Shown here one piece after another: positions 3,885 through 61,459 of a stretch of DNA of 64,000 nucleotides. Each line of letters starts with the position of its first letter. Within the stretch, counting starts at the first letter, position 1. Source of the DNA: Prevotella sp. GTDB taxonomy: Bacteria; Bacteroidota; Bacteroidia; Bacteroidales; Bacteroidaceae. The stretch lies in contig JAFPZD010000095.1 of NCBI GenBank assembly GCA_017417465.1, positions 30,032 through 94,031 on the forward strand, read 5' to 3'. The notes under the pieces were generated by a model. It searched no databases and was not told where the DNA came from. It saw nothing but the letters and a program-made list of their open reading frames with translations. The position numbers and the translations under genes are program-made.

Positions 3885-5207
3885 ATGAAAGAATTTGTCA
3901 TCTCAGAGGCAAAGGCCGAGACGGCCGTGCTGGTGGGACTGATTACGAAAGAGCAAGACGAAGCCAAAACAAAAGAGTACCTGGACGAGCTGGAATTCCT
4001 CGCCGACACGGCGGGGGCACGCACCGTGAAGCGCTTTACGCAGAGGGTGGGTGGCCCCAGTCAGGTGACTTATGTCGGTAGCGGAAAGCTGCAAGAGATT
4101 AAGCAATACATCAAGGATTGTCAGGACGCTGCCGACGAGGCTGCCCATAACGCTGAATCCATTCTCAATTCTCAATTGTCAACTGACACGCGCGAGCTGC
4201 CCCAGCCCGTAGGCATGGTCATCTTCGACGATGAGCTGTCGGCCAAGCAGATTCGAAACATTGAGAAGGAGCTGCAGGTGAAAATTCTCGACCGCACGTC
4301 ACTTATCCTCGACATCTTTGCCATGCGTGCCCAGACGGCAGAAGCAAAGGCACAGGTGGAGCTGGCACAGCACCGCTACATGCTGCCCCGCCTGCAGCGG
4401 CTGTGGACGCATTTGGAACGCCAAGGCGGTGGTTCTGGTTCTGGCGGTGGAAAGGGCTCCGTAGGACTTCGTGGCCCTGGTGAGACGCAGCTGGAGATGG
4501 ACCGCCGTATCATCCTTCACCGTATCACCCTGCTGAAGCAGCGCTTGGCCGAGATCGACCAGCAGAAGACGACGCAACGCAAGAACCGCGGGCGCCTCAT
4601 TCGTGTGGCCCTTGTAGGCTACACCAACGTGGGCAAGTCGACGCTGATGAACCTGCTGTCGAAGAGCGACGTCTTTGCCGAGGATAAGCTGTTTGCCACA
4701 CTCGACACGACGGTGCGCAAGGTTACCATTGAGAACCTGCCCTTCCTGCTGGCCGACACTGTGGGCTTCATCCGTAAACTGCCCTCCGACCTGGTGGAGT
4801 CGTTCAAGAGCACCCTCGACGAGGTGCGCGAGGCCGACTTGCTGGTGCATGTGGTGGATATCTCGCACCCCGGCTTTGAGGAGCAGATACGCGTGGTGGA
4901 GCAGACACTGGCCGACCTTGGCTGTCAGGACACGCCGTCGATGATTGTGTTCAACAAGACCGATGCCTACACCTGGACACCGAAGGAGCCCGACGACCTG
5001 ACGCCATCTACCCGCGAGAATGTCTCGCTCGAAGAACTGAAGCGCACGTGGATGGCCAAAATGCACGACGACTGCATTTTTATTTCTGCCCGCCAGCGGG
5101 ACAATATCGATGAGCTTCGGACGTTATTATATAATAAGGTACGCGAACTCCATGTGCAAAAGTACCCGTATAACGACTTCCTCTATCCAGTAGTCGAAGC
5201 TGAGTAG
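3885..5207 (+). CDS. hflX: Ribosome-associated GTPase HflX
   Basis: 440 residues. An N-terminal HflX domain is followed by a glycine-rich linker (about 182-195) with the family signature GPGETQLEMDRR, then a TRAFAC-class G domain: G1 GYTNVGKS (245-252), G3 DTVGF (291-295), G4 NKTD (357-360). HflX binds ribosomes and helps split or rescue stalled ones. The N-terminal domain contains an extra segment AESILNSQLS, encoded at 4161-4183 by the CAATTCTCAA repeat that is found elsewhere in the window, so it is probably a repeat insertion into a surface loop. It has its own promoter. The stop codon is followed immediately by a purine-rich repeat array. Confidence 0.95.
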   Translation: MKEFVISEAKAETAVLVGLITKEQDEAKTKEYLDELEFLADTAGARTVKRFTQRVGGPSQVTYVGSGKLQEIKQYIKDCQDAADEAAHNAESILNSQLSTDTRELPQPVGMVIFDDELSAKQIRNIEKELQVKILDRTSLILDIFAMRAQTAEAKAQVELAQHRYMLPRLQRLWTHLERQGGGSGSGGGKGSVGLRGPGETQLEMDRRIILHRITLLKQRLAEIDQQKTTQRKNRGRLIRVALVGYTNVGKSTLMNLLSKSDVFAEDKLFATLDTTVRKVTIENLPFLLADTVGFIRKLPSDLVESFKSTLDEVREADLLVHVVDISHPGFEEQIRVVEQTLADLGCQDTPSMIVFNKTDAYTWTPKEPDDLTPSTRENVSLEELKRTWMAKMHDDCIFISARQRDNIDELRTLLYNKVRELHVQKYPYNDFLYPVVEAE

Positions 5208-5293
5208 AAGAGGAGTAATTGAGGAGTTAGGGGGAGTAAATTGAGGAGTTAGGGGGAGTTAAAGGGGAGTTAGGGGGAGTTAAAGGGACGGCA
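5208..5293 (+). repeat. Left arm of inverted array (GGAGTTAGGGG family) around S23-like gene 1
   Basis: From the base after the hflX stop codon the sequence is a tandem series of GGAGTTAGGGG and GGAGTTAAAGGG units ending in AGGGACGGCAG. It is the reverse complement, with few changes, of the array at 5735-5850. The innermost roughly 30 bp on each side match with one indel and about four substitutions. Related arrays occur at 50272-50425 and 52573-52740. Confidence 0.85.
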
Positions 5294-5322
5294 GTTTCAA
5301 AGAATATAAACGTAACGATAAT

Positions 5323-5700
5323 ATGGGAACATATAGCTTTGAGGACGTTTTAGCGTGGCAAAAAGCGCATGCTTTTGTGCTATATGTCTATGAGGTAACC
5401 CGCTCTTTTCCTGAGGATGAGCGTTTCGGACTGACGTCCCAGTTCCGCCGGGCGGCAGTTTCGATTGAGGCAAACATTGCTGAAGGCTATAAGAAATTAA
5501 GCAAACAGGACAAGTTGCGGTTCCTGAATATTGCCCAGGGAAGTCTGGAGGAATGTCGCGACTATCTCTTGCTTGCCCATGATTTGGGCTATTATGGAGC
5601 GGATGTGTTCGCACAACTGCACCAAAAAATTGAGAATGCGAGTATGTTTTTAAATTCATATTGCAAAGGAATCATCAATAACAGCGGTATCAAGGATTAG
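5323..5700 (+). CDS. Four-helix-bundle protein, 23S rRNA intervening-sequence (S23) family, copy 1
   Basis: 125 residues, all predicted helical, with the family signature FRRAAVSIEANIAEGY and RFLNIAQGSLEECRDY. This matches the S23 / four-helix-bundle family (PF05635, TIGR02436), whose founding members are encoded inside intervening sequences of 23S rRNA and whose relatives include Avd of diversity-generating retroelements. The molecular function is unknown. The ORF lies inside a large inverted repeat (5208-5293 and 5735-5850), so the transcript can fold into a long hairpin with the gene in the loop. No rRNA lies in this window. It sits in the gap between hflX and a DUF4954 gene on the same strand. 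Confidence 0.88.
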   Translation: MGTYSFEDVLAWQKAHAFVLYVYEVTRSFPEDERFGLTSQFRRAAVSIEANIAEGYKKLSKQDKLRFLNIAQGSLEECRDYLLLAHDLGYYGADVFAQLHQKIENASMFLNSYCKGIINNSGIKD

Positions 5701-5734
5701 AATACTTGAGGAATGCTTGTGGAAACGTATATTC

Positions 5735-5850
5735 TATCGTCCCCTAACTCCCCCTAACTCCCCTTAACTCCCCCAAACAACTCCCGAAAAAACTATCGTC
5801 CCCTAACTCCCCTTAACTCCTCCTAACTCCCCTTAACTCCCCCAAAAAAC
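5735..5850 (+). repeat. Right arm of inverted array around S23-like gene 1
   Basis: Two composite copies, each beginning TATCGTCCCCTAACTCC and continuing as CCCCTAACTCC / CCCTTAACTCC units, separated by AAACAACTCCCGAAAAAAC. It is complementary to the left arm at 5208-5293 and ends about 12 bp before the ATG of the next gene. On the coding strand the left arm is purine-rich and this arm pyrimidine-rich. Confidence 0.85.
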
Positions 5851-5862
5851 ACCCACACAATT

Positions 5863-7716
5863 ATGAGAGAATACAGACAACTGAGAGAAGATGAAATCCA
5901 GATCCTCGAGGCCAACGTATGCTGGGCCGAAGACTGGTCGCGCGTAAAAGTCGCCGAAACGTTCATACCCTATAACTTCCACCGCGTGATGTTCTATGGC
6001 GACATCCGCCTGGGATCGTTCGACAAACAGGTAGAGGTGGCCAAGGGCTTCGTGAAGCACTCGGGCATCAACGATGCCACGCTGCGCAATGTCTCCGTCG
6101 GCAACGACTGCCTCATCGAGAAGGTGGGCAACTTCATCAACAACTACACCATCGGCGACGACTGCTACATCTCGAACATCTCGACGATGGAGACCCTCGA
6201 GGGGGCCAGCTACGGTGCCGGTTCCACCATCTCCGTGCTCAACGAGATGGGCGATGGCAACGTCACCCTCTTCCGCGAGCTGAACTCGCAGCTGGCAGCC
6301 TTTATGGTGAAGTACAACCGCGACAAAGCTCTGACAGCACGCCTCCAGCAACTCATCGACGACGAGGTGCGCGTGTCGATGCCCGAGCGTGGCACCATCG
6401 GCAACCGTGTGAAGATTGTCAACACCAAGGACATCACCAACACCGTCATCAAGGGCGACTGCGAGATCAACGGCGCTGCCCGCCTGGCCGACTGCACCAT
6501 CCTGAGCTCTGAGGACGCCAGCGTCTACATCGGCACGGGCGTCATCTGCGAGAACTCGATCATCTGCGATGGCTGCTCCATCAACAACTCCGTGAAGATG
6601 CAGGACTGCTTCGTGGGCGAGGCCTGTCAGATTACCAATGGCTTCACGGCCGAGGCCAGCCTCTTCTTTGCCAACTCGTTCATGGCCAATGGCGAGGCCT
6701 GTGCCGCCTTCTGCGGCCCCTTCTCGGCCAGCCACCACAAGTCGAGCCTGCTCATCGGTGGGCAGTTCTCGTTCTACAATGCTGGCTCGAACACCAACTT
6801 CTCGAACCACGCCTACAAGATGGGACCGCTGCACTACGGCACCCTGGAGCGTGGCTCGAAGACGGCCTCGGGCAGCTACGTGCTCATGCCTGCCACCATC
6901 GGCGCCTTCTCCGTCTGTATGGGTAAGCTGATGCACCATCCCGACACCCGCAACCTGCCGTTCTCCTACCTCATAGCCTATGGCGACACGATGTACCTCG
7001 TGCCTGGTCGTAACATCACCACCGTCGGCCTCTACCGCGACATCAAGAAGTGGCCCAAGCGTGACAAGCGTTCGAAGCAGTCGAAGAAGTCGATTATCAA
7101 CTTCGACTGGCTGTCGCCCTTCACCGTAGGCGAGATTATCGAGGGCATCAAGGTGCTGAAGGACCTGCGCAACGCCTCCGGCGAGAATGTGACGACCTAC
7201 AACTTCCACGAGTATGTCATCAACAACTCATCGCTCGTCAAAGGCTTGAAGTACTACGACATCGCCCTGCGCATCTATATGGGCGCCGTGCTGAAGCGTG
7301 CCCAGAAGGAGGGCTTCTTCGGCGTGCCTGACTCCGAGGTGGGCAAAGGTCCCTGGTGCGACCTCTCCGGCCTCCTGCTCCCTGAGAGCGAGGAGCAGCG
7401 GCTGCTCAACGATATCAAGGACGGCACCATCGAGAACATCCAGCAGGTGCTGGCCCGCTTTGAGGAAATCAACGACTGCTACAGCGACTACCGCTGGGCA
7501 TGGTCCTACCAGCTCATCCTCGACTACTACCACCTCGATGAGCTCGACGAACAGGCCTGTGAGCGCATCCGCGAGGACTATGTCCGTGCCCGCCGTGCCT
7601 GGATTGCCGAGATCCGCAAGGACGCCGAGAAGGAGTTCCAGCAGGGCGACGTCGACCAGGAGACGCTCGACAGCTTCCTCGAGCAGCTCGACCACGAGGT
7701 AGACTACGAAAACTGA
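5863..7716 (+). CDS. DUF4954 family protein, left-handed beta-helix type
   Basis: 617 residues. It matches from memory the DUF4954 family, common in Bacteroides and Prevotella (opening YRQLREDEIQILEANVC). Residues of about 60-280 read as imperfect hexapeptide repeats (IGDDC, SIINNS-like turns), the pattern of left-handed beta-helix acyl- or nucleotidyl-transferases. The C-terminal third is helical and charged. No signal peptide is seen, so it should be cytoplasmic. The reaction is unknown; a sugar-nucleotide or acyl-transfer role is only suggested by the fold. It is flanked on both sides by S23-like genes within repeat arrays. Confidence 0.78.
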   Translation: MREYRQLREDEIQILEANVCWAEDWSRVKVAETFIPYNFHRVMFYGDIRLGSFDKQVEVAKGFVKHSGINDATLRNVSVGNDCLIEKVGNFINNYTIGDDCYISNISTMETLEGASYGAGSTISVLNEMGDGNVTLFRELNSQLAAFMVKYNRDKALTARLQQLIDDEVRVSMPERGTIGNRVKIVNTKDITNTVIKGDCEINGAARLADCTILSSEDASVYIGTGVICENSIICDGCSINNSVKMQDCFVGEACQITNGFTAEASLFFANSFMANGEACAAFCGPFSASHHKSSLLIGGQFSFYNAGSNTNFSNHAYKMGPLHYGTLERGSKTASGSYVLMPATIGAFSVCMGKLMHHPDTRNLPFSYLIAYGDTMYLVPGRNITTVGLYRDIKKWPKRDKRSKQSKKSIINFDWLSPFTVGEIIEGIKVLKDLRNASGENVTTYNFHEYVINNSSLVKGLKYYDIALRIYMGAVLKRAQKEGFFGVPDSEVGKGPWCDLSGLLLPESEEQRLLNDIKDGTIENIQQVLARFEEINDCYSDYRWAWSYQLILDYYHLDELDEQACERIREDYVRARRAWIAEIRKDAEKEFQQGDVDQETLDSFLEQLDHEVDYEN

Positions 7717-7720
7717 TTTA

Positions 7721-7803
7721 AAGGTAAAAAAGTAAAAAGGTAAAAAAGTAAAAAGGTAAAAAAGTAAAAAGGTAAAAAAGTAAAAAGGTAAAAAAGTAAA
7801 AAG
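7721..7803 (+). repeat. Left arm of inverted array (GGTAAAAAAGTAAAAA)n around S23-like gene 2
   Basis: Five near-identical 16-bp units GGTAAAAAAGTAAAAA start four bases after the stop codon of the DUF4954 gene. The reverse complement recurs at 8250-8287, on the far side of the small S23-like gene. Confidence 0.9.
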
Positions 7804-7858
7804 TGGATGAGTGAAAAGGTAAAAGAGCAGTAGATTAAAAAGGATATTGACAATTCTA

Positions 7859-8209
7859 ATGAGTGACAGTGTTATATATAAACTCAGTAAACTGTTTGCG
7901 TTGCGGATAATTAAACTGTATAATTACCTACGCGAAGAGCAACAGGAATATGTTATGTCGAAACAAATATACAGAAGTGGGACAAGCATCGGTGCCAATA
8001 TTGCTGAAAGTATATTTGCCCAAAGCGATGCCGACTACGTTAACAAGCTGAAAATATCCCTGAAAGAAGCCAGTGAAACCCGCTATTGGCTGGAGCTGCT
8101 TTTCGAAGCGGGTACTATTTCAGAGGAGGCATACGCCTCAATGCTCAATGATGTTAATACAATTATCGGTACAACAATAAACATTATAAACAAAAAGATG
8201 AATTCATGA
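7859..8209 (+). CDS. Four-helix-bundle protein, S23 family, copy 2
   Basis: 116 residues from the ATG at 7859; an earlier in-frame ATG at 7847 is possible. It carries the S23 signature YRSGTSIGANIAES followed by YVNKLKISLKEASETRYWL, and is diverged from copy 1 at 5323, so it is not a recent duplicate. The gene lies between two complementary arrays (7721-7803 and 8250-8287). Its stop codon overlaps the ATG of the M16 peptidase gene (ATGA), which suggests translational coupling. Function is unknown, as for the rest of the family. The coding sequence is visibly more AT-rich than the neighbouring housekeeping genes. Confidence 0.85.
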   Translation: MSDSVIYKLSKLFALRIIKLYNYLREEQQEYVMSKQIYRSGTSIGANIAESIFAQSDADYVNKLKISLKEASETRYWLELLFEAGTISEEAYASMLNDVNTIIGTTINIINKKMNS

Positions 8210-11175
8210 AACAGAAAGAGTTTAATGTGAAACGGGTAAGAAACAATTATTTTTTACTTTTTTACCTTTTTACTTTTTTACTTTTAGTTGCTTCCTGTGG
8301 CGGCAAGTACAAGTATGAAACCGTAAAGGGCGACCAGACGAAGACGCGTATCTACACGCTGAAGAACGGTCTGAAGGTCTACCTCAGTGTGAACAAGGAA
8401 GAGCCTCGCATCCAGACGTTTATTGCCGTGCGTACTGGCTCGAAGAACGACCCCGCCGAGACCACCGGTCTGGCCCACTACCTGGAGCACCTGATGTTCA
8501 AGGGCACCGACAAGTTCGGCGTCACTGATGCGGCTGCCGAGGCACCACTGCTCGACCAGATTGAGCAGCAGTACGAGCACTACCGCACCCTCACCGATCC
8601 CGCCGAGCGCCGTCAGGCCTACGCCGTCATCGACTCGCTGAGCCAGGAGGCTGCCAAGTACTTCATCCCCAACGAGTACGACAAGCTGATGTCGGTCATC
8701 GGTGCTGAGGGCACCAACGCCTACACCTCCGAGGACGTCACCTGCTACACCGAGGACATCCCTTCGAACGAGGTTGAGAACTGGGCGAAGATCCAGTCGG
8801 ACCGCTTCCAGAACATGGTCATCCGTGGCTTCCACACCGAGCTGGAGGCCGTCTACGAGGAGTACAACATCCACCTGACCAGCGACATCGACAAGGTGTT
8901 TGTTGCCCTCTCTGCCAAGCTGTTCCCCACGCACCCCTACGGCACGCAGACCACCATCGGTACCCAGGAGCACCTGAAGAACCCCTCGATCACCAACATC
9001 AAGAACTACTTCCGCAAGTGGTATGTGCCTAACAACGTGGCCATCTGCATGTCGGGCGACATGAACCCCGACGAGGTCATCGCCACCATCGACAAGTACT
9101 TCGGCGCTTGGCAGCCCGCCCTCGACGAGCAGGGCAACCAGCTGGCTTCCGTGCCACAGCCCACGTTCCCCGAGCAGCCTGAGATTACCGCGCCCATCGA
9201 CACCACCGTCGTTGGCCTCGAGGCTGAAAACCTGTGGATGGGCTGGCGCTTCGACAGCGGCAACTCCTTGCAGATCGACACCCTGCAGGTCATCGAGTCG
9301 ATGCTGAGCAACGGCACCGCCGGCCTGCTCGACCTCGACATCAACCAGCAGATGAAGATGCTGAGCTCCATGGGCGGCGTCATGCCCCAGATGGACTATT
9401 CGCTGTTCCTCATGTCGGGTACACCACGCGAGGGACAGAGCCTCGACGAGGTGCGCACGCTGCTGCTCGCCGAGCTCGACAAACTGAAGAATGGCGACTT
9501 CAGCGACGACCTGCTGCCATCGGTCATCAACAACATGAAGCTGCACTACTACAACCAGCTCGAGAGCAACGAGAGCCGCGCCAGCATGTTTGTCACCGCC
9601 TTCATCAACGACACACCCTGGCAGCAGGAGGTCACCGCACTCGACCGCATCGAGAAAATCACGAAGGACGAGATTGTGGCCTTTGCCAACCGCCACTTCA
9701 ACGACAACTACGTGACCGTCTTCAAGCGGCAGGGCGTCGACACCACGCAGAAGAAGATCGACAAGCCGCAGATTACGCCCATCCCCACCAACCGCGACCT
9801 TGTCAGCGACTTCGTCAAGGCTATTCAGGAGACCGAGGTGAAGCCTATCGAGCCGCGCTTCGTCGACTTCAAGAAGGACCTCGCCTTCGGCACCATCGGC
9901 GCCAATGCCCAGCTGCCCTACATCTACGTCAAGAACCAGGAGAACGGGCGCTTCCAGATGGCCCTGCGCTACGACTTCGGTGAGGAGAGCGACGTGCGCT
10001 ACACCTATGCCGCCGACTATCTCGACTACCTCGGCACCGACTCACTCACGCCCGAGCAGCTCAAGCAGCAGTTCTACAAGCTCGCCTGCTCCTACTCCGT
10101 CGTCGTCATGCCGCGCAGCATCTCAGTCACCCTCAATGGCCTGGGCGAGAACATGCCACAGGCACTCGCACTGCTCGACAACCTGCTGCAGAACGCTAAG
10201 GTCGACACCATGGCTTGGATGCAGTACTGCGCACTCACGGCCAAGCAGCGTGCCGACAGCAAGGCCGACCAGCGCACCAACTTCAACTACCTCTACAACT
10301 ACGGTCTCTACGGCCCTTACAATCCCTACCGCAACCAGCTGAGCGATGCTGAGCTCGCACAGACCAATCCCCAGGACCTGCTCGACCTGCTGAAAGGCCT
10401 TGCCCAGTATGAGCATACCATCCTCTATTACGGCCCGATGAGTGAGCGTGAGCTGGCCGACGCCATCACCAAGGCGCATAAGGTCGGCGCAGAGCTGCAG
10501 AAAGCACCCGAGGGACGCAACTACGTCCTGCAGGAAACGCCTGAGAACGAGGTGCTGCTGGCTCCCTTCGATGCCAAGAACATCTACATGCGCATGATCC
10601 ACAACGAGCAGCGCCCGTGGAATGCCGACGAGGCACCGCTCCACGCCCTCTTCAACGAGTACTTCGGTGGCGGCATGAACACCATCGTCTTCCAGGAGCT
10701 GCGCGAGGCCCGTGGCCTGGCCTACAACGCCTTTGCTGCCTACGTCGACCCGCAGTACAAGGACCAGCCCGAGTACTTCTTCACGCACATCATCACCCAG
10801 AACGACAAGATGATGGACTGCGTGCGCCAGTTCCACGTCATCCTCGACACCATCCCGCAGAGCGAGAACGCCTTCAACATTGCCAAGGAGGCACTCACCA
10901 AGCGCCTCGCAAGCCAGCGTAACACCAAGTTCGGGCTTATCAACTCCTGGCTCGTCGCTCAGCAGCGTGGCATCGACTACGACATCAACGAGCGCATCTA
11001 CAACGCGTTGCCGCACCTTACGCTCAAGGACATCGTCGACTTCGAGCAGCAGCTCATGGCGCACAAGGCCTATCGCTACGTCATCCTCGGCGACGAGCGC
11101 GACCTCGACCTGGCCGCCCTCCAGCAGTACGGCCCCATCAAGCGTCTCTCCACGCAGGAGATATTTGGCTATTGA
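8206..11175 (+). CDS. M16 family zinc metallopeptidase, lipoprotein
   Basis: 989 residues. Lipoprotein signal with Cys31 (LVASC). The N-terminal M16 domain has the inverted zinc motif HYLEH (91-95) and the distal glutamate segment ELEAVYEEY (212-220). Two M16 halves are present, and the C-terminal half lacks HxxEH, as is usual for the single-chain form. The predicted role is peptide degradation in the periplasm or at the outer membrane. The ATG at 8206 overlaps the stop of the preceding gene. The hydrophobic core of the signal peptide (LLFYLFTFLLL) is encoded by 8250-8287, a copy of the TTTTTTACCTTTTTAC repeat that also forms the right arm of the inverted array. GTG at 8227 is an alternative start. 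Confidence 0.93.
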   Translation: MKQKEFNVKRVRNNYFLLFYLFTFLLLVASCGGKYKYETVKGDQTKTRIYTLKNGLKVYLSVNKEEPRIQTFIAVRTGSKNDPAETTGLAHYLEHLMFKGTDKFGVTDAAAEAPLLDQIEQQYEHYRTLTDPAERRQAYAVIDSLSQEAAKYFIPNEYDKLMSVIGAEGTNAYTSEDVTCYTEDIPSNEVENWAKIQSDRFQNMVIRGFHTELEAVYEEYNIHLTSDIDKVFVALSAKLFPTHPYGTQTTIGTQEHLKNPSITNIKNYFRKWYVPNNVAICMSGDMNPDEVIATIDKYFGAWQPALDEQGNQLASVPQPTFPEQPEITAPIDTTVVGLEAENLWMGWRFDSGNSLQIDTLQVIESMLSNGTAGLLDLDINQQMKMLSSMGGVMPQMDYSLFLMSGTPREGQSLDEVRTLLLAELDKLKNGDFSDDLLPSVINNMKLHYYNQLESNESRASMFVTAFINDTPWQQEVTALDRIEKITKDEIVAFANRHFNDNYVTVFKRQGVDTTQKKIDKPQITPIPTNRDLVSDFVKAIQETEVKPIEPRFVDFKKDLAFGTIGANAQLPYIYVKNQENGRFQMALRYDFGEESDVRYTYAADYLDYLGTDSLTPEQLKQQFYKLACSYSVVVMPRSISVTLNGLGENMPQALALLDNLLQNAKVDTMAWMQYCALTAKQRADSKADQRTNFNYLYNYGLYGPYNPYRNQLSDAELAQTNPQDLLDLLKGLAQYEHTILYYGPMSERELADAITKAHKVGAELQKAPEGRNYVLQETPENEVLLAPFDAKNIYMRMIHNEQRPWNADEAPLHALFNEYFGGGMNTIVFQELREARGLAYNAFAAYVDPQYKDQPEYFFTHIITQNDKMMDCVRQFHVILDTIPQSENAFNIAKEALTKRLASQRNTKFGLINSWLVAQQRGIDYDINERIYNALPHLTLKDIVDFEQQLMAHKAYRYVILGDERDLDLAALQQYGPIKRLSTQEIFGY
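8250..8287 (+). repeat. Right arm of inverted array, inside the M16 signal-peptide codons
   Basis: TTTTTACTTTTTTACC followed by TTTTTACTTTTTTACTTTT, the exact reverse complement of the 16-bp unit at 7721-7803. It is translated as part of the M16 lipoprotein signal peptide. Confidence 0.9.
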
Positions 11176-11367: not shown

Positions 11368-11437
11368 AACAACGAATTAAACGAATTAAACGAATTACAA
11401 TGCGCAACAATTCGTTTAATTCGTCAAATTCGTTGTT
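11368..11437. repeat. Hairpin repeat built of ACGAATTAA units, copy 1
   Basis: 29-nt arms (11368-11396 and 11409-11437) made of AACGAATTAAACGAATT units with two mismatches, around a 12-nt loop ACAATGCGCAAC. A second copy in the opposite orientation, with a matching loop, is at 61366-61429. The rest of the 330-bp gap between the M16 and GH31 genes holds only the palindrome at 11208 and AT-rich sequence. Confidence 0.85.
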
Positions 11438-37810: not shown

Positions 37811-39652
37811 ATGAACAGTAAAGTGATGAAAAGAAAGATACAGACGAGACTCTTTCGGGCTTGTGCTATTTTAGCCCCCCTGCTTTGGGTTGGGGTAGGG
37901 GAAGCCCTTGTCTCCTGCTCCGACTGGAACGACCATTACGACGAGGCAGGTGTCTCCACGGAGGCCATTGAGGTCTATCAGGGCGACATCGTGTCTTACA
38001 TGCGTTCGGCCAGCGACCTGTCGCAGATTTCACAGCTCTTCGAGCAGGCAGGTGCCTACAGCTCCACCACAAGTGATAAGCAGTACACCTTCGTCGTCTG
38101 CGACAACAGCACCTTCCAGCAGGGCAGCAGTGAGATTGCCGACCGCAAGCTCTTTGCCAACTACTGCATCTCTGATGCGGCAGTCACACCTCTGGAGTTG
38201 GTCGTCGGTTTCGGCATCAACAACCGTGCAGGTAAGACCATCTGGGTCTACGGCTCAGGCAATAGCGTCAGCATTGACAATTTCGGCATCAAGAAGATTG
38301 TCAAGACCCAAAATGGCTATGTCTACGTGATCAATGGCGTGCTGCCTGTTCGCATGTCGGTTTACGAATACCTGCAATCTCTGGGCGACGACTATTCGAC
38401 CTTCAAGCACCTCGTCACTGCCTACGAGCAGCGCGTCTTTGACCGTGAGCACAGTGCCGTCACAGGCATCAACCAGGCAGGTGAAACCGTCTACGACACC
38501 ATCTGGGTGACACGTAACACGCTCATGGATCGCTATACTGACACCGGCATCGACTATTGGAACATGCGCGACGAGCAGTTCGTTACCACCATGTTTATTC
38601 CTAACAACAAGCAGATTGACGATGCCCTCCGCAGTGCCCTTGACAGCATCCCCGTTTGGCTCAACCGCCCTGCCACCGATGCCGACCGTGCCAAGTTTGA
38701 GGAGTGGATCGTTCGTGCCTGCTTCTCCGACAAGCGCCTGGAGCCCTCACAGGTCAGTGCTTCGGCTCCCGACCTGAGCAGTGTCGAAGGCTATCGCATG
38801 ATTGTCGACGAGCGTGCCGACGAAACCACCTACAAGGCAGCCGATGCCGCCTATTGGCGTCCCAGCGTGCAAACCGTCGACACGAACCGTCGTGTGAACC
38901 TGAGCAATGGCTATGCCTACTACTGCACCAACCTGAAGATTCCCAACCACGTCATCATCTACCGTGTGAAGACGCGCTTCTACCAGATATGGGATGCCAA
39001 CAACATGCGCGACGAAGCCACCATGCGCCAATACTTCGACTGGCGTAACCTCGACGGCTTCTCAACGTCCATCAGCACCCTCAACTCCTACACGGCATTG
39101 GAGCAGTACGGATGGCCCGCTATCGACTACAACCTGCTGTCGGCATGTCCCACCGAGGAGGCCGTCAGCGACTCGCTCGTCTGTGGTGTCGAGTATATGG
39201 GCCTCATCTACGACGAAGCCAACAACGAGGCACTCGAGTGCCGTCTGCCTGCCGGTGAATACTACCTGCGCATGGGTTTCGACCGTAACTCCATCTACCT
39301 GCTCGACATCTACTTCAACGATTCCCTCGTTACGGAGTCGCTCAAGTCGGGCAACCTCAATGCCGACCGTATTGCCAACGATATTCCCGTCTACGGCATT
39401 CAGGCCCCTGGCTATCCCGAGGGTTACAACCCAGAGGATTGGCGCGAGTACGACGAGAACGTGGCTGCTTACGACACTGACGGCTACACCATTGGCCTTG
39501 TCAATCAGAAGCATAATGGCATCTTCCGCATCCGCGTGGAGTCGCGCGACATGGGTTACCGCTACAAGCGCACCGATGTCGGCGATGCCAGCAACTACGG
39601 TCAGATGCTGATGTATCACTGGTGCCTGCGTCCCACCCGGAACAACTATTGA
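37811..39652 (+). CDS. Fasciclin-type lipoprotein 3
   Basis: 613 residues, Cys36 (EALVSC). N-terminal FAS1-like pattern: SDLSQISQLFEQAGAYSS, then YTFVVCDNSTFQQGS. A second one (EYLQSLGDDYSTFKHLV) follows, and the C-terminal half is beta-rich with DSLVCGVEYMGLIYDEANNE. No catalytic motif was recognised. The signal-peptide core APLLWVGVGEA comes from a diverged GC-rich repeat at 37873-37912. It is followed by the GAATTGAGA array that starts on its stop codon. Confidence 0.7.
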   Translation: MNSKVMKRKIQTRLFRACAILAPLLWVGVGEALVSCSDWNDHYDEAGVSTEAIEVYQGDIVSYMRSASDLSQISQLFEQAGAYSSTTSDKQYTFVVCDNSTFQQGSSEIADRKLFANYCISDAAVTPLELVVGFGINNRAGKTIWVYGSGNSVSIDNFGIKKIVKTQNGYVYVINGVLPVRMSVYEYLQSLGDDYSTFKHLVTAYEQRVFDREHSAVTGINQAGETVYDTIWVTRNTLMDRYTDTGIDYWNMRDEQFVTTMFIPNNKQIDDALRSALDSIPVWLNRPATDADRAKFEEWIVRACFSDKRLEPSQVSASAPDLSSVEGYRMIVDERADETTYKAADAAYWRPSVQTVDTNRRVNLSNGYAYYCTNLKIPNHVIIYRVKTRFYQIWDANNMRDEATMRQYFDWRNLDGFSTSISTLNSYTALEQYGWPAIDYNLLSACPTEEAVSDSLVCGVEYMGLIYDEANNEALECRLPAGEYYLRMGFDRNSIYLLDIYFNDSLVTESLKSGNLNADRIANDIPVYGIQAPGYPEGYNPEDWREYDENVAAYDTDGYTIGLVNQKHNGIFRIRVESRDMGYRYKRTDVGDASNYGQMLMYHWCLRPTRNNY

Positions 39653-39705
39653 GAGTTGAGAATTGAGAATTGAGATTTTAGAATTGAGATTTGAGATTGA
39701 GAATT
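39650..39705 (+). repeat. TTGAGAATTGAGA array at a stop codon
   Basis: Starting in the stop codon: TGAGAGTTGAGAATTGAGAA and more TTGAGATTTGAGA units up to the next ATG at 39706. The same motif in either strand lies inside three coding regions (3706-3739, 4161-4183, 48290-48322). Confidence 0.85.
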
Positions 39706-49257: not shown

Positions 49258-50268
49258 CTATGAATTCAACTCTACAAACTTATTGAATGTCTTGAGGGCA
49301 CTGCCGCTGTCGATGCTCTCGCGGGCAATCTCGATGCACTCCTCGATACTCTTCTGTCCCTTCTCAAGCACCTGAATACCAAAGCCGGCATTGGCCAGCA
49401 CAATGTTCTTTTGGGCGGGCAGCGCGCGGTTTTCAAGCACGGCGTCGAAGATCTGGGCGGCTTCCTCCTCGGAGGCGCCACCCACCAGCTCCTCCGGCTT
49501 GGCAATGTCGAATCCCAGGTCTTTCGGTGCGAAGATGCGCTCATAGTCTTTCGTCGTCACCTTGAAGTCGCCCGTCAGCGATATCTCGTCGTAACCATCG
49601 ATGCTGTTCACGATGCCGTAGTCGATGCCCAGCTTCTGGTAGACGCTGTTGTAGAGGCGCATCTGGTCGAGGTTGGCGACGCCGAGCAGCTGGCATTGGG
49701 GGCGTGAGGGATTGACGATGGGCCCTAGGAGGTTGAAAATGGTGGGGAAGGGGAGGGCTTTGCGGATGGGGCCCACGAACTTCATGGCCTTTGCAAAGAG
49801 CTGGGCGTGCAGGTATACGATGCCTGCTTCGTTGAGCGAGCGGTTCAGCTTGTCGATGTCGTCGGTAAACTTAATGCCGTGATGGGCGATGACGTTCGAA
49901 GCACCGCTGACGCTCGTGGCAGCGTAGTTGCCATGCTTTGCCACCTTGTAGCCGGCGCCTGCAATGACGAAGCACGATGTGGTTGAGATGTTGAAGGTGT
50001 TCTTGCGGTCGCCACCAGTGCCCACAACGTCGATGTATCGGTCGGCCTCCAAGATGGCGGGGACGCCCGTTTCGAGGATGCCGTCGCGGAAGCCGAGCAG
50101 TTCGTCGACAGTGACGCCGCGCATTTGCAGACAGGTGAGCAGTGCCGTGATCTGTTCGTTGGGGTACTCGCTGTGGGTGATGCCCACCAGGATGGTTTTC
50201 ATCTCCTCGCGGGAGAGCTCTTCGTGGTTCAGTAGGCGGAAGAGGTAGCCTTTCATTGTTTGTTCCAT
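49258..50268 (-). CDS. trpD: Anthranilate phosphoribosyltransferase
   Basis: 336 residues. Adds phosphoribose to anthranilate. GTGGDRKNTFNISTTSCFV (PRPP-binding, 83 on), KHGNYAATSVSGASNVIAHHG and the conserved HPAM-like segment FVGPIRKALPFPTIFNLLGP. Normal length. The 156-bp gap upstream to trpG is filled by a GGAGTTAGGGG array, yet direction and order keep it in the operon. Not fused to trpG. Confidence 0.97.
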   Translation of the reverse strand: MEQTMKGYLFRLLNHEELSREEMKTILVGITHSEYPNEQITALLTCLQMRGVTVDELLGFRDGILETGVPAILEADRYIDVVGTGGDRKNTFNISTTSCFVIAGAGYKVAKHGNYAATSVSGASNVIAHHGIKFTDDIDKLNRSLNEAGIVYLHAQLFAKAMKFVGPIRKALPFPTIFNLLGPIVNPSRPQCQLLGVANLDQMRLYNSVYQKLGIDYGIVNSIDGYDEISLTGDFKVTTKDYERIFAPKDLGFDIAKPEELVGGASEEEAAQIFDAVLENRALPAQKNIVLANAGFGIQVLEKGQKSIEECIEIARESIDSGSALKTFNKFVELNS

Positions 50269-50271
50269 GCT

Positions 50272-50425
50272 AAAGGAGTTAAGGGGAGTTTTTTTGAGGA
50301 GTTAGGAGGAGTTAGGGGGAGTTAAGGGAAGTTAAGGGACGATAGTTGGGAGTTAGGGGGAGTTAAAGGGGAGTTAGGGGGAGTTAAGGGACGATAGTTG
50401 GGAGTTAAGAGGGAGATTTGGGAGT
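50272..50425. repeat. GGAGTTAGGGG-family array between trpG and trpD
   Basis: Plus-strand units GGAGTTAGGGG, GGAGTTAAGGG and two copies of AGTTAAGGGACGATAGTTGG. The composite unit is the one that forms the arms around the S23-like gene at 5323 and that recurs at 52573-52740. The trp mRNA would carry the pyrimidine-rich complement. Confidence 0.88.
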
Positions 50426-50988
50426 TACAAAAACATCCAATTCTGCAGCATTTTCTTGCCATCGGGTGTGAGCACACTCTCTGGGTGAAACTGTATGCCG
50501 CGCACGTTGAGTTTCCTGTGTCGAAGCGCCATGATTTGTCCCTCGTCAGAGACGGCCGTGACTTCGATGCAGTCGGGCAGGTGCTCGTTGGCGACCACCC
50601 ACGAGTGGTAACGCCCTATGGTGATGTCGCGGTCGATGCCGCTGAAGAGAGGGTCGTCGGCGACGATGTGGCAGGGGGTGGCCACGCCATGAAAGACGTC
50701 AGAGAGATTCTCTAGCTTTCCGCCGAAGACCTCGCCGATGGCTTGGTGGCCAAGACAGACACCCAGAATAGGCTTTCGGCCGGCATACCTCTGGATGACG
50801 TCGAGCAGCAATCCTGCCTCTGAGGGGATGCCAGGGCCAGGCGAGAGGATGATCTTGCTGTAGTGCTCGAGGTCGTCGAGTGCGAACTGGTCGTTGCGCA
50901 CGACGGTGACCTCGGCGCCGAGCTCCTTCACTAAATGACTCAGATTGTAAGTGAACGAGTCGTAATTATCGATGATGACAATCTTCAT
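50425..50988 (-). CDS. trpG: Anthranilate synthase glutamine amidotransferase subunit
   Basis: 187 residues. Class I glutamine amidotransferase: LSPGPGIPSEAG, GVCLGHQ with nucleophile Cys78, and RGIQFHPESVLT with His168 and Glu170, the full catalytic triad. Supplies ammonia to TrpE for anthranilate synthesis. It follows trpE after 27 bp. Confidence 0.97.
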   Translation of the reverse strand: MKIVIIDNYDSFTYNLSHLVKELGAEVTVVRNDQFALDDLEHYSKIILSPGPGIPSEAGLLLDVIQRYAGRKPILGVCLGHQAIGEVFGGKLENLSDVFHGVATPCHIVADDPLFSGIDRDITIGRYHSWVVANEHLPDCIEVTAVSDEGQIMALRHRKLNVRGIQFHPESVLTPDGKKMLQNWMFL

Positions 50989-51015: not shown

Positions 51016-52572
51016 TCATAACTTTTCAGCCATCTCGATGGCCTTGTGCAGCGCCCCCAGTTTGTTGTTGACCTCCTGCAGTTCATACTCCACATCACTC
51101 TTTGCCACAATGCCGCCGCCTGCCTGAAACCAGAGTTCGCCGTTGCGTGAGACGAATGTGCGGATGGTGATGGCTTGGTTGAGCGAGCCGTCGACACCGA
51201 TGATGCCGATGCAGCCACCATAGGCACCGCGATTGTGTGGCTCGTATTCAGAGATGAGCTGCATGGCGCGCACCTTGGGTGCCCCTGAGAGCGTGCCGGC
51301 AGGAAACGTGTCGATGAAGGCCTTGATGGGGTCGGCGCCCTCGTCGAGCTCGCCACTGACGCGCGACACCAGGTGGATGACGTGCGAGTAGTACTGCAGG
51401 TCCTTGTAGAAGTCGACCTTCACGCGGTGGCAGTTGCGACTCAGGTCGTTGCGCGCAAGGTCGACCAGCATCACGTGTTCGGCATTTTCCTTGGGGTCGT
51501 TGCGCAGGTATTCGGCACCTCGCCTGTCGGCTTCTGCGTCGCCCGTACGCTTGGTAGTGCCTGCAATGGGGTCGATGTAGGCAATGAATTTTTTGTTTAT
51601 TGTTTCATTGTTATCGTTCTGGGTTCCAATCCGTTGAATACGGCAGTGCGTCTCAGGTGAAGAGCCGAATATGCGGAAGCCGCCGAAGTCAAAGTAGAAG
51701 AGGTAGGGCGAGGGATTGATGCTGCGCAGGGCACGATAGAGCTTGAAGTCGTCGCCCTCGTACTTCTGTACGAACCTGCGGCTGAGCACGATCTGAAACA
51801 CGTCGCCACGCAGGCAGTGCTGTATGCCACGACGGATGTTTGCCCTGTGCTCGTCGTCGGTCAGCGTCGAGCACACGTCGCCAACGGGATGGAAATCGTA
51901 TGCCTGCACGTTCGACTTGTTCATCGCCTTGAGGATGGCGTCAATGCGCTTTTCGCCTTCCTCTATGTCCTCTCCTTCTTCTACCAAGCTCACCACTGTC
52001 AGCATGTTGTCGTGGTGGTCGAAGACGATCACCGCTTTGTAAAGGATGTAGAGCATGTCAGGCGCGTCGTTCTTCTGCTGTGTCTCGTCCTTCACGGCGA
52101 TGTCCTCGAAATAGCGCACGGCGTTGAACGAAGTGTAACCGAAGAGGGCCACGGTTTCACACGGCTTTAAGCGTGAGGTGGGGGCATCGGTTTCACACGG
52201 TTTTACGCGGGAGGTGGGGGCATCGGTTTCACACGGTGTTGCGCGGGAGGTGGGGGCATCCTCGCCCTTCACCTCGATGCGGTCGATGAGTTCGTGGATG
52301 GCGGTGTCAGTGCGATAGTCCTTGTTTACCTCTTTTTGGATGGTTGTTTTGTCGGGAAAATTGACAGTTGCTATGCCGTGCCCAATAGCCACACTGGCGA
52401 TGGGATTGATGCCGATGAACGAGCGTGAATTGTTCGCATCGTGATAGTCGGAGCTCTCCATCAGTGCACTCTGCGGATAGAGGTCGCGCAGCCGCATATA
52501 GACGCCCACTGGCGTGTAGAGGTCGGCCAAAATGGTCTTGCTGCAGGTTGTATATCGAAAGGTTTTCATCAT
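51016..52572 (-). CDS. trpE: Anthranilate synthase component I with internal repeats
   Basis: 518 residues, roughly 40-50 more than expected. Makes anthranilate from chorismate with TrpG. The chorismate-binding domain shows QIVLSRRF, INPSPYLFYFDFGGFRIFGSSPE, AGTTKRTGDAEADRRGAEYL, LVDLARNDLSRNCH, GAPKVRAMQLISEYE and GGGIVAKSDVEYE. Residues 105-140 are three tandem copies of a 12-residue unit DAPTSRVKPCET (variants RATPCET, RLKPCET), encoded by three 36-bp repeats at 52153-52260. They sit before VALFGYTSFNAVRYFE, in the N-terminal tryptophan-sensing domain, and look like a recent in-frame expansion. Confidence 0.96.
   Translation of the reverse strand: MMKTFRYTTCSKTILADLYTPVGVYMRLRDLYPQSALMESSDYHDANNSRSFIGINPIASVAIGHGIATVNFPDKTTIQKEVNKDYRTDTAIHELIDRIEVKGEDAPTSRATPCETDAPTSRVKPCETDAPTSRLKPCETVALFGYTSFNAVRYFEDIAVKDETQQKNDAPDMLYILYKAVIVFDHHDNMLTVVSLVEEGEDIEEGEKRIDAILKAMNKSNVQAYDFHPVGDVCSTLTDDEHRANIRRGIQHCLRGDVFQIVLSRRFVQKYEGDDFKLYRALRSINPSPYLFYFDFGGFRIFGSSPETHCRIQRIGTQNDNNETINKKFIAYIDPIAGTTKRTGDAEADRRGAEYLRNDPKENAEHVMLVDLARNDLSRNCHRVKVDFYKDLQYYSHVIHLVSRVSGELDEGADPIKAFIDTFPAGTLSGAPKVRAMQLISEYEPHNRGAYGGCIGIIGVDGSLNQAITIRTFVSRNGELWFQAGGGIVAKSDVEYELQEVNNKLGALHKAIEMAEKL
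52153..52260 (-). repeat. Three 36-bp tandem repeats inside trpE
   Basis: Units at 52153-52188, 52189-52224 and 52225-52260, plus strand GGTTTCACACGGTTTTACGC plus GGGAGGTGGGGGCATC, differing only at a few bases near the middle. The ACCGTGTGAAACC core (minus strand) resembles the ACCGTGTAGAACC units at 16329-16480. Confidence 0.95.
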
Positions 52573-52740
52573 TTTTTTGGAGTTTTTTGGGGAGTTTTTT
52601 GGGGAGTTTTTTGGGGAGTTTTTTGGGGAGTTAAGGGGAGTTAGGGGGAGTTAAAGGGGAGTTAAAGGGACGATAGTTGGGAGTTTTGGGGGGAGTTAAG
52701 GGGAGTTAAAGGGACGATAGTTAGGAGCTTTGGGGGGATT
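52573..52740. repeat. GGAGTTTTTTGGGGAG / GGAGTTAAAGGG array between trpB and trpE
   Basis: Five units of GGGGAGTTTTTT come first, then GGAGTTAAGGG and GGAGTTAAAGGG units with two ACGATAGTT boxes. It is the same family and orientation as 50272-50425, so the two are direct repeats flanking trpG-trpE. The rest of the gap to trpB is pyrimidine-rich (TACTCCTATACTCC). Confidence 0.85.
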
Positions 52741-61365: not shown

Positions 61366-61429
61366 AACGAATTAAACGAATCAAACGAATTGCTGCGCGT
61401 TGTAATTCGTTTAATTCATTAAATTCGTT
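61366..61429. repeat. Hairpin repeat built of ACGAATTAA units, copy 2 (inverted)
   Basis: 26-nt arms at 61366-61391 and 61404-61429 around loop GCTGCGCGTTGT. The loop's reverse complement matches the loop of copy 1 (11397-11408) at 10 of 12 bases, so this copy lies in the opposite orientation. Confidence 0.85.
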
Positions 61430-61459
61430 TTTTAGAATATAATGGTGTTCATCTACTTA

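Follow-up and report, generated by a model that had tools for sequence, protein, structure and literature searches.

The window analysed here, a stretch of 64,000 nucleotides from Prevotella sp. (contig JAFPZD010000095.1, positions 30,032 to 94,031 of the forward strand), probably carries two copies of a foldback-type mobile element, the S23 array element, in which inverted arms made of tandem arrays, with their inner ends, enclose one gene for an S23/IVP four-helix-bundle protein, and which would be moved by S23-promoted copying of its own hairpin. The parts of the two elements are as follows.

5208 to 5293, plus strand: left arm of element 1, a GGAGTTAGGG-type array with GGGACGGCAGTTT at its end (repeat analysis)
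5323 to 5700, plus strand: S23/IVP gene of element 1, class I, 125 amino acids (PF05635, E 1.1e-36)
5735 to 5850, plus strand: right arm of element 1, a complementary CCCCTAACTC-type array
7719 to 7803, plus strand: left arm of element 2, a GGTAAAAAAGTAAAAA array
7859 to 8209, plus strand: S23/IVP gene of element 2, class II, 116 amino acids (PF05635, E 3.5e-27)
8250 to 8287, plus strand: right arm of element 2, within the signal-peptide region of the M16 peptidase open reading frame (ORF) 8206-11175

Element 1 (5208-5850) is flanked by an hflX-like gene (3885-5207) and a DUF4954 gene (5863-7716), and element 2 (7719-8287) follows the DUF4954 gene and extends with its right arm into the M16 peptidase ORF. 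The initial annotation of this DNA had assigned both genes to the S23 family and described complementary tandem arrays around each, and both assignments hold: the inverted arms align at 5210-5290 with 5738-5822 in element 1, where the array continues to 5850, and at 7719-7754 (array to 7803) with 8251-8286 in element 2. The left arm is purine-rich in both, as had been noted, and in 125 of the 156 armed elements more than half of its bases are purines. The proposed folding of the RNA with the ORF in the loop is likewise borne out by prediction, since the arms pair around the ORF in both folds (z -10.4 for element 1, 20 shuffles; z -5.2 for element 2, 100 shuffles). No plausible gene other than S23 stands between the arms: one more ORF is listed (5297-5659, minus strand), and it overlaps the S23 gene of element 1 in antisense. 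Neither element contains a transposase, and the protein domain search gave PF05635 and a weak match of the first protein to bAvd, below the cut-off of that model. The elements lie between protein genes and outside any 23S rRNA gene, with no rRNA match in 4800-9000 and a single sub-threshold Rfam hit, of 27.5 bits to a Plasmodium RNase P model with a cut-off of 100. The right arm of element 2 encodes LFYLFTFLLL, the hydrophobic stretch of the likely lipoprotein signal peptide of the M16 ORF; in the window as in a related locus (L190, 3341-3900) the arm forms the hydrophobic core of the signal peptide, so that a repeat has become coding sequence. The window genome is a bin with 5.5% estimated contamination, and single copies could be foreign; the cross-genome results are independent of this.

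Inverted arms around S23 genes

The arms were scored by local alignment of 350 bp on the left of a gene with the reverse complement of 350 bp on its right, with 28 as threshold. In the window genome PF05635 has 15 matches, comprising 11 stand-alone genes and four long S23-like ORFs. All 11 stand-alone matches have inverted arms (score 37-103) with repeat units that differ between loci, and two of them contain an in-frame stop, one of these two being truncated; the long ORFs score 16-18, and two of them reach 46 and 32 if measured from the ORF ends. Among relatives, sampled as the loci returned plus 40 regions chosen from the match list rather than as all matches, 67 of 79 S23 genes reach 28 and 58 reach 35, compared with 74/1954 mismatched flank pairs and 19/224 other genes of the same loci at 28 or above (81 loci became 79 by removal of L084, a duplicate of L023, and of a contig-edge copy in L070). 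Species genomes over several phyla were scanned with a search motif that favours class II, and the best 80 of a longer match list gave 71/79 loci with at least 28 and 66/79 with at least 35, and 223/1954 mismatched pairs and 11/130 other genes at the threshold; L114 was dropped for its 49-bp flank, and L098, which lies on the contig of L063, was counted in this set and in the relatives and removed from the pool. These records come from Bacteroidota groups, including the named strain Bacteroides xylanisolvens XB1A, and from Clostridia, Acidobacteria, Alcanivorax, Fibrobacter, Sulfurovum, Nitratifractor, Neisseriaceae and Lentisphaeria. In both sets, the second of which covers the best matches listed, inverted arrays thus flank S23 genes far more often than other genes, the comparison on which the initial annotation had staked the link.

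Plasmids of Cyanobacteria, Treponema, Bernardetia and a Chloroflexota species added 17 loci from 17 of 25 records with scores of 35-84, which were taken over slightly wider stretches than in the other sets and are not independent (one insertion is common to three loci, one site is represented by two alleles, and two loci are orthologous). Arms are present at 11 of 13 loci on viral contigs. In an independent sample of the best match from each of 30 genomes of the window's phylum, 18/30 loci score at least 28 and 10/30 at least 35, vs 25/870 mismatched flank pairs at 28 or above. The pooled set, which used 9 of the 17 plasmid loci and 10 of the 13 viral loci (without the duplicate L213 and the armless L211 and L215), has arms at 155/176 loci, 140 of them at 35 or above; with L211 and L215 included, the fair count is 155/178. 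Chance as the cause of the arms is ruled out by the other-gene, mismatched-flank and direct-orientation controls. S23 genes themselves occur in 157 of 198 sampled genomes of the window's phylum, with up to 16 matches per genome.

Repeat units tied to the S23 protein

The arms are specific to the S23 protein that they enclose. Class II proteins (RSGTSIGAN type) have arms at 109/119 loci, 82 of them with a period of 7, and in register these 82 loci give the heptamer A (0.87), A/G (0.76/0.19), T (0.77), T/G (0.68/0.28), any, A/G (0.60/0.22), any. Class I proteins have arms at 25/27 loci, with units of 7 (2), 8 (7) or 10 (3) or no clear period (13), and 22 of the 31 proteins of neither class have arms as well. 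By eye, an inner end like GACAATAGT is seen in several GGAGTTA-type arms of relatives. On the protein tree the unit period (7 bp vs other) requires 10 changes, compared with a mean of 21.4 and a minimum of 16 in 300 shuffles (119 rows), so that unit period follows the protein tree. Three of seven long S23-like ORFs (239-328 amino acids) score at least 28 (L014, L015, L042) and are accompanied by arrays of partly palindromic units (CGTTATAACG, CCGG...); similar arrays stand in the window at 748-834, 11371-11397 and 61366-61430, and these palindromic-unit arrays are perhaps a third class of element.

Both arms of a locus change together. Among the 58 pairs of loci sharing both flanks, 47 represent two different loci that both have arms, and in 39 of these 47 pairs the two arms of one locus match each other better than the same arm matches between species, with the reverse in 8; where S23 identity is at least 50%, 29 are better and 8 worse. 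The pairs are non-independent and the within-locus scores are maximised by alignment, and this all-pair test supersedes an earlier hand-picked version (41/58 pairs, 37 scored, 29 vs 8). Two cases can be followed directly: one of the Nostoc plasmids with an insertion in a methyltransferase gene (see below) is one heptamer shorter in each arm, and two Nostoc elements with left flanks that are homologous by eye have AAGTCGC and AAGTCGG units, differing in both arms.

The arms are also inherited with the gene. Among pairs of armed loci without a common flanking ORF, left arms are similar (score at least 28) in 0% of 931 pairs at 20-29% protein identity, and with rising identity in 1% of 1119, 3% of 1945, 5% of 3993 and 14% of 808 pairs, reaching 49% of 55 pairs at 70-79%, 3/5 at 80-89% and 1/1 above. 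Since arm similarity at unrelated sites climbs with protein identity, the arms travel with the S23 gene. Identical arms are present on a Dolichospermum plasmid and on a viral contig, with no flanking ORF in common.

Empty sites and insertion polymorphism

A search for DUF4954 in the genus matched 38 of 40 genomes, and 30 loci were fetched, of which 28 with both genes were read at the site of element 1. The hflX-DUF4954 gap measures 8-140 bp in 25 of these relatives and about 1.0-1.2 kb in three, and by profile search the gap is free of S23 genes in all 28; one of the long gaps (L196) has, by eye, an IS200/RAYT-like ORF where the window has element 1. At the DUF4954-M16 site one relative (G044, L190) carries an S23 gene 73% identical to that of the window, with arms of the same type (score 59) and the right arm likewise in the M16 signal-peptide region; no S23 gene was found at this site in the other loci having both genes, including closer relatives such as G023.

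Two insertions are resolved on Nostoc plasmids. In three plasmids the block lies inside a DNA cytosine methyltransferase gene that is intact in three others, and the distance between shared flank markers is 332 bp in the intact gene and 470, 470 and 456 bp in the occupied ones. At a second site the markers are 197 bp apart in five plasmids and 431 bp apart in the plasmid with the block. Neither insertion shows a visible target duplication, and each has cost target DNA (332 and 197 bp between markers). AATT stands close to the left junction of each, as CAATTCG in the methyltransferase gene, which could be chance. L321 was not counted as the empty site of the L234/L235 element, an S23 5'-end remnant being present by eye. 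The comparison of strains that the initial annotation had called for turned up orthologous gaps that are empty in relatives and Nostoc plasmids with and without the block, which behaves as a mobile element with insertion polymorphism.

Some gaps with the same flanking ORFs hold different S23 subfamilies in different species (L046 with L061, L039 and L067; L031 with L022, L025 and L050), with little or no S23 similarity, as if they had been hit more than once. On plasmids, S23 blocks are located between cas2 and cas1 in a Nostoc and an Anabaena and beside cas1 in a Pseudanabaena (L313, 1393-3149; L315, 1303-3394; L088), and others between helicase and methylase or MmeI-type genes (L086, L091, L092).

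With respect to their neighbours, taken as the longest ORFs rather than as curated genes, elements with arms are co-directional with the upstream ORF in 132/147 and with the downstream ORF in 115/135 cases, compared with 287/429 control neighbour pairs. Median distances are 2 nt from the upstream stop codon to the beginning of the outer left arm, and 8 nt from the end of the right arm to the next start. Such a placement would fit if hairpins are tolerated between the genes of operons, or if they act in the message.

Arrays and hairpins without an S23 gene

The window also has three solitary arrays.

50262 to 50427, plus strand: solitary array cognate to element 1, repeated GGGACGATAGTT
52572 to 52727, plus strand: second solitary array cognate to element 1 (repeat analysis)
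39648 to 39705, plus strand: solitary heptamer array (ATTGAGA), then ATTATGATTAG, which is also found beside the arrays of an S23-less hairpin in the same genome (L269:10110-10320)

The first two are the ORF-less arrays that had been reported as related to the elements, and they are present as solitary direct arrays, neither having an inverted partner within 300 bp. Over 644 kb from seven S23 genomes there are 12 S23-less inverted array pairs with loops of 14-261 bp and three with loops of 0.9-1.2 kb; two further pairs, whose loops measure about 450 bp, are the elements of the window. The S23-free genome G010 has one short-loop pair as well. Inner ends are shared between hairpins and S23 elements of the same genome: an S23-less array hairpin and an S23 element of G004 both contain GACAAATGCTTT, and a hairpin of the window genome has GAGGAGGTAAAGTAGGATA in common with the S23 element L002 of that genome. 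More generally, a search with the innermost 22 bases of 33 elements found 39 further occurrences within the part of the own genome that was sampled (8.5 per Mb), compared with 34 in foreign genomes (2.0 per Mb).

The density of short-unit arrays per 100 kb is 29.3, 28.3, 20.0, 36.7, 11.7, 5.0 and 27.5 in the seven S23 genomes and 0.8, 6.7, 0, 0 and 2.5 in five S23-free ones (one-sided rank test, p 0.005, with 40-304 kb per genome and relatedness not corrected). With the empty sites, the hairpins that share inner ends and the solitary cognate arrays, the earlier picture of an autonomous element accompanied by non-autonomous derivatives is supported. In L224 (G010:C3:1600001-1620000), from a genome with no S23 match, there is a cluster of GAGAGTT/CTCTCAA and CTAGTATTC-like arrays at several points over 20 kb, and in L004 (180-930) an S23 gene stands between two direct copies of a small S23-less array hairpin.

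The S23 protein

The S23 protein is under purifying selection, with a median dN/dS of 0.06 in the 8 scorable of 19 chosen close pairs. Across 171 sequences, conservation is 0.99, 0.95, 0.92, 0.88 and 0.97 for a Q, R, S, N and E that lie in one stretch and 0.99 for an E further on; their spacing suggests one helix face and a putative buried polar network, and as a guess they are a candidate active or binding site. Relatives with solved structure are 2rld and 2gsc, and the PDB homologue XCC0516 is described as assembling from five four-helix bundles. Concerning reverse transcriptases, the RVT_1 profile has no match in four S23-rich draft genomes (G004, G007, G008 and G019, with 6, 5, 11 and 6 S23 matches), the genes flanking the window copies are not reverse transcriptases, and an Avd-like gene linked to a reverse transcriptase, the one scorable of five Avd-like regions, has no arms (score 22).

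How the elements may spread

In the mechanism favoured here, S23 would bind its cognate array when this is single-stranded and folded back, and would promote its copying to new sites through a template switch primed by the hairpin, which probably takes place at a replication fork or gap. Selection would then keep mainly the copies in intercistronic gaps that are co-directional with their neighbours, and an RNase III-type processing of the message may coexist with hairpin copying. Template switching primed in this way would give array growth, matching arms, loss of target sequence and no visible target duplication. We infer that S23 itself drives the movement and spreads the repeats.

Several observations weigh against this reading. 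No element was seen to move, and S23 has no known activity. The first distribution of scores had already been seen when 28 was chosen as threshold, 12/30 loci of the phylum sample fall below it, and the plasmid locus L091 drops to 25 in the uniform measure. At five of the 17 plasmid loci (L088, L089, L092, L241, L315) the direct match exceeds the inverted one. Because both well-resolved insertions lost target DNA, recombination or later deletion may lie behind them. A cognate place in the own genome, as far as sampled, was found for only 13 of the 33 elements; the S23-free G003 carries an array in its hflX gap, and the S23-free G010 (6.7 per 100 kb, its 12 arrays mostly within one 20-kb stretch) exceeds the S23 genome G009 (5.0).

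Among the alternatives, the most probable is that these are RNA elements like the intervening sequence (IVS) of 23S rRNA, with arms that serve as RNase III substrate in a polycistronic message, S23 binding or protecting the processed RNA, and movement at the DNA level being incidental. The strong predicted RNA stems are in its favour, as are the co-directionality with neighbours and the start of the outer left arm just past the upstream stop, and the Coxiella IVS has the same layout over 428 nt with an RNA that is cut by RNase III in vitro (PMC4990558; here and below, papers are cited for the available parts of their texts). However, selection too would give the orientation bias, and the solitary arrays without inverted partner, the higher array density in S23 genomes and the arms following the gene to new sites are left unexplained; this alternative is considered unlikely. 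Less probable again is that ordinary slippage makes the intergenic arrays, that S23 genes land there and that quasipalindrome correction during replication alone keeps the arms alike. Concerted change of the arms in place is indeed what template switching in inverted repeats would produce, but insertion of the gene into a pre-existing array is disfavoured because its flanks would then be direct and not inverted, few such arrays exist in S23-free genomes, and a heptamer consensus across phyla with a unit period tied to the protein tree needs a specific link. Very improbable, finally, is retrotransposition of the hairpin RNA by a reverse transcriptase borrowed in trans, as by Avd in diversity-generating retroelements: PF05635 resembles Avd (PMC10053308) and the first window protein weakly matches bAvd, but the S23-rich drafts have no RVT_1 match and the one scored Avd-like gene linked to a reverse transcriptase has no arms.

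Relation to known elements

Each known kind that was tested, namely IVS, foldback, REP/RAYT, Avd retroelement and DDE/HUH insertion sequence, is judged to lack a defining feature, although the IVS could alternatively count as the parent kind. The foldback (FB) transposons of Drosophila have long inverted ends of short tandem repeats that vary between copies. S23 array elements share such ends and their variation between copies, but are bacterial, shorter than 1 kb and without a recognised transposase, and of their polymorphic insertions the two resolved ones have lost target DNA (332 and 197 bp between markers), where a foldback element would be expected to leave a target-site duplication. In REP/REPIN systems with RAYT transposases, one protein gene serves many dispersed short repeats of matching sequence. 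One S23 gene with many short dispersed matching repeats resembles this arrangement, to which the initial annotation had compared the elements; the comparison stands as an analogy, without extending to the enzyme, since no transposase domain, and in the domain search no HUH/Y1 domain, was found in S23, and the S23-associated repeats are tandem arrays.

The short tandemly repeated repetitive (STRR) sequences of cyanobacteria are intergenic heptamer arrays. Horizontal transmission, with no mechanism evident, has been suggested for the TAACTGA repeats of Beggiatoaceae, Cyanobacteria and Bacteroidetes (PMC4679880). Both kinds consist of intergenic heptamers like the S23 arms and occur partly in the same phyla, and for these exact units a link to S23 is a proposal. 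The available parts of the TAACTGA paper (PMC4679880) and of a paper on G-rich heptamers (PMC4692102) do not mention S23, those of three further papers mention an S23 protein without surrounding arrays (PMC10910872, PMC8700078, PMC5524665), and no paper linking S23/IVP genes to tandem arrays was found among the matches listed in the open-access literature.

The IVS with S23 ORF of Coxiella burnetii and Leptospira shares with the present elements the family name, an ORF in the loop of a long terminal hairpin, a patchy spread and a similar length (428 nt vs 431-470 bp between flank markers at the Nostoc sites). In Coxiella it is described as a selfish element of 428 nt with a 28-bp terminal stem, whose S23p was suggested not to be made in vivo (PMC4990558). 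Unlike the IVS, S23 array elements lie between or inside protein genes, have arms of tandem arrays with class-specific units and S23-less relatives, and encode an S23 under purifying selection. Avd belongs to a related four-helix-bundle family and works with a reverse transcriptase (PMC10053308), whereas the S23 genes of the window have none adjacent, and arms are absent in the one Avd-like case scored.

Beyond the two copies in the window, it is conceivable, although we hold it at somewhat less than even, that the S23/IVP family, which has no known domain of a nuclease, transposase or reverse transcriptase, represents mobility proteins of a new class, and that each of its subfamilies recognises a cognate short repeat and copies its own folded-back arrays; the orphan intergenic heptamer arrays of Bacteroidota, Cyanobacteria and others would then have their missing driver in S23, with the rRNA IVS as one of its branches. 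The finding may thereby tie together two puzzles. Function and origin of the IVS are described as unclear; it was suggested to be a transposition remnant or a mobile element whose ORF is needed for mobility, a role for the S23 ORF that was proposed in the early 1990s and is called still unclear (PMC4990558). The other puzzle is the spread of heptamer arrays (PMC4679880), and both become testable. If the proposal is true, a common gene encodes the protein of a mobile element that gets by without any known mobility enzyme, and S23 elements seed short repeats through many bacterial genomes.

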